From positions 26,645,264 through 26,709,263 of the forward strand of contig OV121092.1 of the NCBI GenBank assembly GCA_921293015.1: 64,000 nucleotides of DNA. The letters run 5' to 3'. Below are positions 2,234 to 51,199 of the stretch, in pieces. Under the pieces are notes generated by a model. The model saw only the letters and a list, made by a program, of their open reading frames with translations, was not told the origin of the DNA and did no database searches. The DNA comes from Phorcus lineatus. Taxonomy: Eukaryota; Mollusca; Gastropoda; Trochida; Trochidae. The translations under genes were made by a program, and so were the position numbers. Position 1 is the stretch's first letter; every line of letters starts with the position of its first letter.

Positions 2234-3400
2234 TTGAAAATCAATGATAGATCCAAGTCAATAAAAATAATTTGAAAATCATATATAACGTAACAATAGC
2301 CCAATATATGAAATATAGTAGAATTTATTACATATTACATGCTGACATTGCACATGCTTTCATTTTTTCTAACTGGCTCTCTGACTTCAATTATCAAGAA
2401 GATCAATTATTTAGTAAAGTACCAGTTTTCAAACGTTGATTCGCATTTCGATTAAATTTCATCAATGAAAATGTTTTATTTAGCTTAATTGAATGAAACA
2501 AAGCAAATAAGCCTTGTTCGGAATGAAAGGGCATTGGCATGTCAATGACTTCACGATAGGCAACGTAAGGTCATTCAGCGACCCTTGACCTTTGTTCATA
2601 AGTGTATCTCGCAGCACATATGCACTCATGCAATTGGCGTTGACGACCAGAATATGTTCACTACCGGCATACGATATGTCTTGATGGTTGTCATGTTTCA
2701 AAATGACAAAATATGCCTTTTTTTCCGGCCACTTTTCCGATAATTATCAGAAGTGTTCTATATAGTGACACTTGGAGAAAATGCACAATGTTCATGATTT
2801 AGGGGTCGCAGAGCCCTAAATATTGAACCCTGATAGGAAGATAATTGGATTAAAGGGGTCACATGTAGCTTATATCTTGAAATCGTAAGATGTGTAGATA
2901 TATATCAATTCAATGGAAGTATTGTGTCAATTTTTCTGCGAACAATTGAACTTGACAAATTTAATATTATTGGTCAAATATGAATTTATCAAACATGTTA
3001 ATATTATTAAGATTTCTTTAGTTCATTGAACTTTTTGTGGACTGGTTGTGCTGATCCTGACATAGACACTTTTTATCCTCACAATAAAAATGAACCTTTT
3101 TCCCATTTACATCAAAATGATGTATCATCTCAACTTTGCACCAATGTTGTTTAAGGTTATAAACACATTAATGAAAAACTTTTGTATGTTTGTTTGTGGA
3201 ACAGTCTTACCTCTAAAGTAATTAAGATTGTAGTAATGTCTATGATACCATTTTACTTTTTTGAATGATTAAGAAAACAGGAAAAAATATTAATGAATTT
3301 CTACTTCTTCTTGGTTGTATGTCAAACATTTAATAGTTATTCCTAGACCTTTGAAAAATGAATGATATTTATTAGGAGAAAAAGTTATATCCCAAAGAGG

Positions 3401-3718
3401 GGAGGGATATAGCGCACTGGTTAGTAACTTCGGTTAAAGATCAAGAGGTCCATGGTTCAAATCCCGCCAGGGGCTTGGCAACTTTGTCTGCAGTAGAGAA
3501 CTGTTCTACATGCAGTAAGGTTTGGGTGCAATGCTACACTTAATTTCAGTGCAGTACCACGTAATTTTTTAGTTACAGCTAAAGCTTGCAGGTTCCAATG
3601 CAATGCATAGCCACAGTTGTGTTGCGGGCTTTCTCCCTGCAATAATACTAGCAGCTGCATAATGTTTAAGTGAAATACTTTTGAAAGTGTTGGTTGTCAA
3701 ACCCAAAATCACCTCACC
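3401..3718 (+). mobile_element. tRNA-headed SINE, full length, diverged
   Basis: Head with A-box-like ATAGCGCACTGG and B-box-like GGTTCAAATCCC. Then comes the family body (GGTTTGGGTGCAATGCTACACT, written here in two parts: GGTTTGGGTG and CAATGCTACACT) and the tail ending in ACCTCACC. Flanking direct repeats are TATATCCCAAAGAGG (3386-3400) and TATATCCCGAAGAGG (3719-3733), matching 14 of 15 bases. The tRNA part has several changes, so the copy is older than those at 14.3 and 53.1 kb. Confidence 0.88.
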
Positions 3719-4012
3719 TATATCCCGAAGAGGGAAAATGCAGATAAAACCGATTTACATATCAAAATGTAATGATGTTGGATTGACAATTTTTGAATGA
3801 ATTAGTAAATGGTAGTTTGAACATTTACTCTTGTTAACTTTATAACTATCAAAACCATTGTTCTCATTATTTTATGGGAATGATGCGTTGCATGTGACAA
3901 TTTTTCGACTCGTAACAACAGTGTTTCCTCATTCATGCCTTAAAAGTACATTTATTTTTAAATTGTAATTATGTTTATAAATATTCTAACCATATTAACC
4001 CCTATCTTGCAG

Positions 4013-7509: not shown

Positions 7510-7826
7510 GGAGCAGCGGAGGAATAGTGGTTAGCGCATTCGGCTTTGGACCAAGAGGTCCGTTGTTCGAATCCCGCCAGGGGCTTGGCAACTTTGTCTG
7601 CAGTAGAGAACTGTTCTACACGCAGTAAGGTTTGGGTGCAATGCTACACTGAAATTCAGTGCAGTACCACCCATGGTTCGCTAGTTCCAGCCAATGCTCG
7701 CAGGTTTCATCGCAACGCATAGCCACAATTGTGTTGCGGGCTTTCTCCTTGCAATAATACTAGCAGACACAATATATGTGAAATAATCTTGAAAGAGGCA
7801 TTAAACCCCATATCACCTCACCTCAC
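7510..7826 (+). mobile_element. tRNA-headed SINE, full length
   Basis: B box GGTTC-type (TTGTTCGAATCCC), the shared body, a tail with AATAATCTTGAAAG and a CACCTCACCTCAC end. The 5' end is slightly rearranged (GGAATAGTGGTTAGCGC). No clear flanking duplication was found. Confidence 0.85.
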
Positions 7827-8542
7827 TTGGGACAATGACCTGATTGAGGGTAAACTAACTGTGTGACCCGAGTGGTTGACAAACTGAGGTCAAGTTACTG
7901 ACCATGGTGACACTTCTAGGTTGACATGCTTGACCGCCCTAGGTTTGTAATGACCAGGTCAGATGTAAAGTCACCACTGACCAGATATAGCATTGAACAT
8001 TGAGAATCAACGAACCATGGAGTAATAATCACTTCACCGTGTATGGTGTTTAGTGCTCTTGGTGTTAGAGATAGGAACTGGTGGTAGTGAATAGAGCCAT
8101 TCTTGATTTTGTTTGAAATGGGCAGAGCAGATTTAAACCTGGATAAAACCTTCGTGAGGACTGCGTGTGAAGAGAAAGCTTGAGAAATAGCCAGTCCAAA
8201 GGTGTTTTTTAGGTCAATTTGATCAACTCAGAATTCAGAACTTTTCAAGCGTTGACCAAATAATTTCAGGCCTTATTTCACAACTGATATGGAATAGGCT
8301 TGCCGTCTTTATTTTTTAGAGGCGTTTTCAACAATTTTGATAGTCTGAAATGTCATTGACCCACCATATGTTACTACGAAGGAGATGGACTCACCTGTTG
8401 GTACAAGTTCAGTGACCTTTGGCAGGAAATAAATAGTAGGAGTTTAACACCCTGGGCATTCAGTCTGATGTAGGTTGCTATTGTTAGAAGTGCTATCACT
8501 CAGCTGCCAGTTCAAATACCAATTGTGTTGGACATTTCCTTC

Positions 8543-48927: not shown

Positions 48928-50864
48928 GTAAGTAGAAAAAATGCACATCGTTTCCTAGTAATCCGGGATTGCCAGGCTAATAAAACTTGGAACCTTACAA
49001 GACTCTCAAGTCCGACAAGCTATCTTTGAAAGAGATGGTCGTAAATTTTCTCATTGCTGATTAATCTTGGATTTATTTGTGTCGAGGTCAGTTAATCCAC
49101 CATCTGGTTGATGTTTCCTTCATTGTTGTTCTCTCTTGATCTAAGCCATGGTTTTTATTGGCTGGGACAATTCAAAGATATCAACATGATAAAGTTAGTT
49201 GGGTAAAATTGATTAAATTCTGACAAAAATCATTGTTTTTATTAGATAGATAAATATAATTATGGAATTTCGACCCCTTTTAGTAAAAATTTAAAATTAA
49301 ATGAAAAAAAGGTTATGGACCACCAAAATCACAAAATGAACCTTTGAATAGTTCAATATTGTATTCATGTTGGCCCTTTATTTTTGGAGTATATTAAAGA
49401 ATGATGTTAAATAAGACATGAGTGTAAATAGCCAAAACATGAAGAGTGTTCCAAAGAAATTCTCTTGAGTGCCAGTGACAGATTTATATACTACATGGAT
49501 GAGGAAGATAGAGATAAACAGATAATATAAATACAGATTGATTTTTGTGTTTTAAGGTACAAGGTCATATTTCTACTTGCCAGTGAAAAAAGAAATGTCA
49601 CTGAACAAACTCATCATTTGTAAACATCTGTTGGCATTCTGATCTAGTGGCAACTGTTGTCCATACATATGCAATAAAACGTTTATTCTGAATATGTTCC
49701 ATTGATGAGGAAACCGCATATGGTCATAGATAACTTCACAATGTTAATGGAATATTGATTCAACATAGTTTCTATTCAAGTGAATACTCAATTTCAAGTT
49801 TCTGGATAGAAGGGGGGCAACATGATGTGTGTGCAATCTCTTCTCATTGAAGTTTTTCTGCAGATTTCATCTCTGTTAAATTGGGCCATATTTCTGGGTT
49901 CTCTCAAAATTCTCTAATGGTGAAAATCTGGAACACAGAGACTGTGGTTTTCTATGTATGTCTCATTTGCTTTTACATCACCAGTTGATTTCTGTTTTGT
50001 AAGAAATATGTGGACATCACACAGGAGAAGAGGCTCCAGTCTCCTCCAATCAAGGGACAGACTGAATACTGAGCTCGAAACACAACAGCTTTTTTCACAA
50101 TAAATTTCTAATTCTTCCTATCAGGATTCTATATTTCTGGCGTAGGAAAATATTCGCCAAATAATTGATGTTGCCAATCAAATGTTGATTAGAACTTTCA
50201 TTTAGGGAAGAGAATGAAGACAGTTTTGTTATATTAAAATCTTATTTCACACCATCCATTTTTAATGATCCAACTTTGAAAATTTGTGTCAGACAAGATT
50301 TTTTAGGTTTATCATTGAGTATCCAAATACTGAAATTATCTTTTTTCTATAAGAAAAATCTGACTTTGTAAACTTAATCAAACAAAATTTTGTAGATATG
50401 TCATTGCATTCCATAAATACTTAACATCAAGGCTTTAGACAGGACAAGTTCACATGAAAAGGGTGATCACAGACAAGAGAATTCTCCTACACGGACGAAA
50501 GGCAATTAATGATGTACTTACTTTGGACCAAAGACTCTTTGATAATCTACTCTCAGTTTGCAGGAATAGCAGCAATCAGTGCCGAGTGGTGTAGGTAATT
50601 GTTGATCAATATTCTTGGACTCGCATGTCACATTGTGTTACAATACCTACTGTGGCGAAAAGGTCGTTTAGAAAAGTCTTTGCTAGTGTTTTTGGATTCT
50701 CATAAGTATTTGGACTTTCAAAATTATTGAGGTTTAGATATATTTAAATATATATATATATATATATATATATGAAAAAAGTTCACCAATTTGAAATTGA
50801 TCTTCAGCTCCCAGGCGTTATATATTGAAAAATACGAAGTCAGAAGTAAAAACAATCCATTTTA

Positions 50865-50904
50865 ATGGCTAGCGCTTTCAGCTCAACGAGCCTCTTCAGG
50901 CCAT
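50865..50904 (-). ncRNA. hammerhead-ribozyme-like motif, left arm
   Basis: Exact reverse-complement twin of the motif at 51023-51062; same core and helices on the minus strand. Confidence 0.65.
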
Positions 50905-51022
50905 ACATACAACGGATAATCAATACAAAATAATATCTATTCAATAATCAAATTATATAATATTTAAATTATATAATATTTATAATTATAAATTCAATAA
51001 TACAAAATTATCCGTTGTATGT

Positions 51023-51062
51023 ATGGCCTGAAGAGGCTCGTTGAGCTGAAAGCGCTAGCCAT
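51023..51062 (+). ncRNA. hammerhead-ribozyme-like motif, right arm
   Basis: In order: helix I 5' strand AUGGC; core CUGAAGA (fits CUGANGA); helix II GGCUC, loop GUU, GAGCU (five pairs, the innermost to the core being G-U); core GAAA; a minimal helix III formed from AGC and GCU with no loop; cleavage triplet CUA (fits NUH); helix I 3' strand GCCAU, pairing with AUGGC. Very short helix III is known in hammerheads of Penelope-like elements and metazoan retrozymes, which cut best as dimers. Activity here is untested. The canonical G10.1-C11.1 pair is replaced by G-U, which may weaken it. Confidence 0.68.
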
Positions 51063-51199
51063 TAAAATGGATTGTTTTTACTTCTGACTTCGTATTTTTC
51101 AATATATATATATATATATATATATATACCGTTCTGATTAAACAAAGATGTAATCTGAGAACAAATGGTGTCCTTGGTCCTTGGCAGTTCTGAACTTAT

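Follow-up and report, generated by a model that had tools for sequence, protein, structure and literature searches.

The DNA analyzed here, in the following referred to as the window, is a stretch of 64,000 nucleotides from the genome of Phorcus lineatus. A repeat search identified a perfect inverted repeat with two arms of 102 nt (50819-50920 and 51007-51108), which are 100% complementary and lie 86 nt apart. The 86-bp spacer (50921-51006) is composed of 46 A, 33 T and 7 C with no G on the + strand, and imperfect direct repeats of 13-15 nt are located near both of its ends. Towards the outside the repeat is flanked by a left (TA)n tract (50749-50772) and a right (TA)n tract (51103-51128), the latter overlapping the end of the right arm. 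TA runs of at least 12 nt were found seven times in the whole 64-kb window, including both of these flanks. The repeat search and the base composition therefore confirmed the original prediction of a perfect 102-bp inverted repeat with an AT-rich spacer of 86 bp and flanking TA runs.

The left arm is orientated antisense on the + strand and shared 100% of its sequence with unit positions 3752-3853 of a tandem element at a second locus of the genome, here named L029. Outward of the left arm follows a stretch of 45 nt (50774-50818, - strand), here referred to as the tail, which runs on from the same sequence in L029 (unit 103-147). This tail is missing from the right arm, which lies on the + strand, and the window copy is thus tailed at the left only. 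The arms as such form an inverted repeat as described originally, but the complete unit is larger, since the tail extends the left arm. No coding body is present in the window copy.

In the genome assembly (958 Mb, 74 contigs) an exact 37-nt core was present in 414 copies, 205 and 209 by strand, and the reversed control in none. With up to three mismatches allowed, a 59-nt stretch was found in 493 copies. Genomic copies that fail to keep the core bases had been named originally as evidence against a ribozyme; the core was kept in the 414 exact copies. These copy numbers show a young repeat family of common descent and are no demonstration of selection on the ribozyme core.

Thirty-six loci including the window were read, and in many of them the arms flank element-body sequence. 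Thirty-five of these loci were picked because they matched a 95-nt arm query over its full length (40 of 862 candidates scored); since this choice favours full exact arms, arm conservation is not used as evidence here. Of the four stretches scanned at the outset, L023 (E = 4.7e-07) and L010 (E = 1.2e-07) contained a GIY-YIG domain (PF01541) above the Pfam cut-off. Furthermore, a 650-aa open stretch of L026 had 931 relatives at E <= 0.001 among 7992 candidates scored. The best 120 of these 931 relatives, with 41-55% identity, carried PF28514 throughout and PF26215 in nearly all cases, and many carried PF00078 or PF01541. We take PF26215 and PF28514 to be RT domains of the type found in Penelope-like elements (PLEs). 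Matches to RVT_1 in the tested fragments were weak (E = 0.018 and 0.0046) and below the cut-off. The hosts named among the 120 matches listed include oysters (Saccostrea), a mussel (Mytilus) and a scallop (Ylistrum), and a few records were labelled as bacterial symbionts of clams.

RT and EN were collinear in L023 and L029, with ORFs interrupted by stops in the copies read. The native order in L029 was endonuclease, 3' UTR, pLTR, tail, ORF start, body, second pLTR, tail and (TA)n. From the EN/RT-like bodies between the arms and from this tandem order, the arms can be recognized as pLTRs of a PLE. The link to PLEs suggested originally holds, as identical arms enclose a GIY-YIG/RT-like body at other genomic loci. 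The family as a whole combines a GIY-YIG ORF between pLTRs, an RT of the PLE type, direct or inverted pLTRs with an optional tail, and AT-rich insertion sites. Very probably, therefore, the window locus is a minimal non-coding insertion of an abundant PLE family, in which both arms are 102-nt pLTRs and which was inserted by way of the two boxes described below.

Some of the collected loci showed further features. In L021 a related PLE (~65% DNA identity over unit 2667-3585) precedes a hammerhead, on the - strand near 2641, whose helix II has 9 bp and whose helix III is the palindrome AACGTT. L022 (3626-4924) and L023 (2990-4290) have one inverted junction in common (unit 686 against 3179), so that a rearranged copy appears to have been re-copied or duplicated. 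A receptor-like open frame in L012 was closest to acetylcholine receptors of abalone, with up to 61% identity, which makes a gastropod-like mollusc the likely host.

Each arm carries, on opposite strands, the motif ATGGC-CTGAAGA-GGCTC/GTT/GAGCT-GAA-AGCGCT-A-GCCAT. It consists of helix I (ATGGC/GCCAT), the core strand CTGAAGA, helix II (GGCTC/GAGCT) with a GTT loop, GAA, the palindromic AGCGCT and A17, and thus contains the type I hammerhead core CUGANGA ... GAAA ... UH together with helices I and II. The minimal type I motif of the right arm is located at 51023-51062 (+ strand) with predicted cleavage after 51057. Its mirror in the left arm is located at 50865-50904 (- strand) with predicted cleavage after 50870.

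The hammerhead-like motif claimed for each arm is present and stands out from chance. A pairing-constrained scan of 308,595 bases of loci gave 62 matches of the window motif, a number that includes double counts because L001-L008 overlap L009-L014, and one match of another sequence; the same scan found no motif in 150 simulated sequences of 64 kb. When a palindromic helix III and helix II were both required, three motifs were found (62, 1 and 1 matches) and none in 100 simulations. Since the simulations gave one match when helix II was not required, the weaker candidates at L020:6369, L039 and L040 are not claimed. In the two sister motifs (L020:7889 and L021 near 2641) the architecture is retained while the helix sequences differ. 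The sister in L020 belongs to a second hammerhead family, which forms an inverted pair (7591-7636 and 7872-7928) with the core strand CTGATGA and the palindromic helix III ATACTAGTAT, and this pair adjoins the same TA tract as a PLE copy.

A covariance search had been proposed originally as a check, with the lack of a hit counting against a ribozyme, and the Rfam hammerhead models indeed gave no match at E <= 10 in the window. For the sister motif at L020:7885-7928 the best match was Hammerhead_1 with 19.3 bits (E = 0.018), below the gathering score of 34, and for the sister motif in L021 there was no Rfam hammerhead match. The Rfam models therefore look insensitive to this minimal type, and we regard their silence as weak counter-evidence.

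The loopless AGC/GCU helix III described originally has to be revised. A three-pair helix without a loop cannot close within one molecule. AGCGCU is a self-complementary hexamer as in dimer-pairing hammerheads, and its full pairing is possible only with a second copy. According to the accessible text of one report (PMC7229834), hammerheads with a weak helix III and palindromic tetraloops act better as dimers, and the available part of another (PMC7761336) states that tandem PLE hammerheads may cleave as dimers.

For a transcript reading through the locus, a hairpin of 102 bp was predicted (-185.8 kcal/mol, z -31.7). The long hairpin that would bury a ribozyme is thus borne out by the predicted fold, whereas the idea that two ribozymes are hidden is not, since one is sense and the other its antisense. 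The predicted fold of the monomer preferred a structure other than the hammerhead (-19.7 against -16.4 kcal/mol, a gap of 3.3 kcal/mol), in energies that leave aside any contribution of helix III, of tertiary contacts or of a protein. On the PAc element of Anolis, the part of PMC11167929 available to us reports that hammerhead cleavage required protein and that cleavage mutants inserted nonetheless. Because the hairpin locks the sense hammerhead against its complement and the PAc cleavage mutants still inserted, we see no role for the ribozyme in the inverted copy. The hammerhead is part of the element and not a function of the inverted repeat; any use it has would lie in the full-length RNA of tandem copies.

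Hammerhead-cleaved RNA was also considered as the template for insertion. Among 62 upstream cDNA ends read by hand in 40 loci, 61 were located upstream of the predicted cut (51/52) and the only one close to it was at position 55 (L031), which argues against cleaved RNA. The composite doubles L030, L046, L049, L062, L067 and L069 consist of alternating pLTR fragments, as if the enzyme had repeatedly switched template. In L030, L046 and L062 internal fragments end at about 49, 50 and 51, at or beside the predicted cut, which speaks against rejecting cleaved RNA fully; other internal fragments of such doubles end at 31, 35, 44, 58, 67, 75 or 83.

The outer ends of the insertions fell on two main points. 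From 52 pLTR/tail matches in the 36 loci, 28 reached 146-147 and thus included the tail, 23 ended at 102 and one at 95 (L026). Two of the 28 tailed matches are not insertion ends of a pLTR (the internal junction of L029 and a tail-only fragment in L012), and in 35 of the 36 loci the full 95-nt match used for picking confined the sample to ends from 95 onwards. Loci fetched later had ends at neither main point, namely at 90 (L049), 59 (L052), 72 (L062) and both 31 and 76 (L068). A TA run of at least 5 nt followed directly after 50 of the 52 scored ends. Additionally, both main points are located at AUAUA boxes of the element RNA, as taken from L029: ...CAAUAUAUA/ACGCC... and ...UUUUUUC/AUAUAUUUAU..., with the slash marking the end point. 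Since both start sites are at AUAUA boxes and the insertions are in (TA)n, pairing between primer and template would be possible.

On the side that was not primed, TA runs of at least 10 nt were present within 60 nt in 8 of 16 single-cDNA junctions, compared with 0.8% of random 60-mers of the window, and the (TA)n tract thus probably predates the insertion. The upstream ends frequently lie at the pLTR edge, with 5 of 40 inside an interval of 22 nt even when tight doubles are left out. A hairpin (CGTTGC/GCAACG) is located just upstream of the 5' edge of the pLTR; the 5' end of the RNA could, as an alternative to this hairpin, account for cDNA stops at the pLTR edge.

Close neighbours in the family are mostly arranged head-to-head. 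Between the 100 copies listed first, out of 414, 20 of the 96 gaps were shorter than 6 kb, where 0.26% are expected at random, and these comprised 16 head-to-head, no tail-to-tail and 4 direct arrangements. One tail-to-tail neighbour was seen in L023, outside this list. Genome-wide, there were 16 tight head-to-head junctions (gap of 0-30 between the CAAC/GTTG edges), two of them within one C39 locus. As 15 different centres were found in these 16 junctions, they look like separate events and not like copies of a fixed palindrome. In pairs that carry a body the cDNAs are often unequal in length, and few if any additional nucleotides separate them (e.g. L009, L011 and L026). The original prediction regarded a head-to-head pair as unusual. 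This layout is not exotic: 16 of the 20 close pairs are head-to-head, and inverted pLTRs, a tail on one side only and captured DNA between pLTRs are known from PLEs of Adineta vaga, as described in the accessible portion of PMC3846280.

Exactly one tail was present in 26 of the 28 inverted pairs that could be scored at both ends (P = 1.5e-6 for independent ends with a probability of one half). Of the 22 pairs in the first set, 20 had one tail, L028 had none and L053/L054 had two; the further tight doubles had one tail in six of six cases. Pairs with an end elsewhere were dropped from the count, i.e. L026 (95), L049 (90), L040/L052 (59), L062 (72) and L068 (31, 76), while L066 with an end at 101 was scored as untailed. 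In the pair L058/L029 an inverted pLTR stands opposite a tandem, the composites L046, L063, L067 and L069 were scored by their outermost ends, and for L053/L054, L055/L056 and L033/L057 the DNA between the ends was read in part. The count covers neither the inverted structures with a single pLTR (L022, L025, L032 and L037) nor the third pLTRs of L020 and L023 nor two pairs on C9 at 17.218 and 55.786 Mb. The window copy, with its tailed left and untailed right end, TA on either side and inner ends at the 5' edge of the pLTR, follows the common layout of the family.

The arms of L011 differed at 1 of 821 sites from each other and by at least 1.1% from other copies, and seven rare states were common to both arms; either one RNA, or one cDNA copied twice, therefore made both. 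Arms were identical in L009, L020, L026 and L051 and differed at 1 of 258 sites in L050, but since other loci match equally well these are non-discriminating. In L023 the arms differed at 6 of 570 sites, which is about the level between loci. An origin of the L023 arms from two RNAs was considered and dropped, because each odd state was private to one arm.

Based on these data we propose, tentatively and at slightly less than an even chance, that one RNA serves both ends of the (TA)n tract opened by the cut, with its two AUAUA boxes, 45 nt apart, each pairing with one target strand end during integration. The element would cut the (TA)n tract, whereupon both 3' ends would prime reverse transcription on the element RNA. 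In the window, the right arm would have been primed at the AUAUA box after the pLTR, which makes its outer edge the first insertion end, and the left arm at the box after the tail, the second insertion end; the (TA)n tracts represent the two sides of the target. Synthesis of both cDNAs would have ended where the pLTR begins at its 5' edge, and the two would have been joined via the 86-bp AT-rich filler. With two boxes and one strand end for each, a two-ended insertion would carry a single tail. We read the 26 of 28 pairs and the shared variants of L011 as pointing to one RNA that offers two start boxes. The filler gave only weak AT-rich matches among the collected loci and contained no PLE sequence. 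It was the only filler other than pLTR among the four places with a gap of 75-104 nt, in a search that left gaps of 31-74 nt outside.

The main rival of this model, possible yet somewhat unlikely in our view, is that a single first-strand cDNA folds back at the 5' edge of the pLTR via CAACG...CGTTG and copies itself, whereupon the second arm, at whichever AUAUA box it reaches first, is joined to the opposite end of the (TA)n tract. It predicts one tail per insertion just as the one-RNA model does, and it fits the rare variants which the L011 arms have in common as well as the palindromic or near-palindromic centres of tight doubles, e.g. CAACGGATAATTATCCGTTG. Moreover, in the text of PMC3846280 available to us, self-priming is favoured for similar junctions in A. 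vaga. However, folding back leads one to expect the tail on the longer, primary cDNA, and in nine unequal pairs (L009, L010, L011, L020, L023, L026, L031, L050 and L051) the longer arm was tailed in four cases and the shorter arm in five. It is further opposed by untailed single insertions (e.g. L017 and L041) and by the 86-bp filler, which is no product of a fold-back. Two independent solo pLTR insertions that by chance flank an 86-bp AT-rich host segment appear improbable. Solo pLTRs do occur (L038, L041 and L043), the second ribozyme family in the same TA tract of L020 implies that repeated hits on one tract happen, and the spacer of the window is the sole non-PLE filler among the four places found. 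The excess of gaps below 6 kb (20 of 96 against 0.26%), with 16 head-to-head and no tail-to-tail arrangements, speaks against independence, as does the agreement of the window with the one-tail layout of the scorable pairs.

We give next to no weight to a fold-back or MITE-like DNA transposon with terminal inverted repeats of 102 bp, even though a perfect inverted repeat with flanking repeats would suit one. L029 and L023 contradict such an element. The arms flank EN/RT-like bodies, antisense and sense; the ends are asymmetric with a tail on one side, direct tandems exist, and the centres vary (15 different among 16 tight junctions) where a fixed internal unit would be expected. An equally negligible chance is assigned to a microRNA precursor. 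Rfam microRNA families such as MIR7723 and MIR8007 matched with E-values down to 2.1e-18, yet the scores listed were far below gathering (86.7 at best against 200) with none at the gathering threshold, and both strands and several families matched one hairpin, which is typical of any long hairpin. Such microRNA E-values on the hairpin at 50819-51108 are a trap for automatic annotation.

Among known systems, the window family stands closest to Penelope/Poseidon-type PLEs with a GIY-YIG endonuclease, such as Pen of A. vaga (PMC3846280) and PAc of Anolis (PMC11167929). As far as the available sections of both papers describe them, these elements share with our family RT-EN coding, a palindrome at the pLTR's 5' edge, and direct or inverted pLTRs, of which one inverted copy may bear a tail of about 30-40 nt. 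Further common features are AT-rich targets, 5' truncation, a tail delimited by two neighbouring RT start sites, and a hammerhead at the pLTR. Differences exist as well. In the portion of PMC11167929 available, the PAc starts are reported as non-homologous to the cut DNA, whereas the window family starts at AUAUA boxes in (TA)n targets; the ORF of PAc begins inside the hammerhead, whereas in the window family, with its core CUGAAGA, it appears to begin after the tail.

Minimal dimer-type PLE hammerheads (Cervera and de la Pena 2014; Lunse et al. 2017), as cited in the accessible part of PMC7761336, are likewise of type I with a minimal helix III, are located in the pLTR and can pair as dimers in tandem copies, as in the window family. 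In contrast to such tandems, the inverted copies of the window make dimerization in cis within the locus impossible. Animal retrozymes, in the excerpts of PMC7229834 and PMC7761336 available, are likewise small non-autonomous repeats with type I hammerheads. They are direct tandem repeats between hammerheads and move by way of circular RNA, whereas the window shows inverted pLTRs of a PLE with coding copies; the direct tandem monomers bounded by hammerheads that mark retrozymes are absent here, the arms of the window being inverted.

The literature already describes hammerheads of PLEs and inverted pLTRs, as well as tails and two start sites. The one-tail count across inverted pairs is a new detail on PLE insertion; neither this count nor a combination of TA targets with paired AUAUA boxes was found reported in the literature that could be searched, which leaves out most subscription titles. 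As the Rfam hammerhead models can miss the minimal dimer type, PLE ribozymes may be undercounted.

How PLEs complete their insertion is described as an open question in the part of PMC11167929 available to us. Hundreds of similar copies in one assembly provide a statistical record of the reaction, in which two starts are preferred, the targets are TA, cDNAs are joined head-to-head and the one-tail rule holds almost strictly. If the one-RNA model is true, the tail would not be an optional extension but would have been left behind when a single RNA templated double-strand target-primed reverse transcription. An odd inverted repeat thereby yields testable predictions on which strand primes where.
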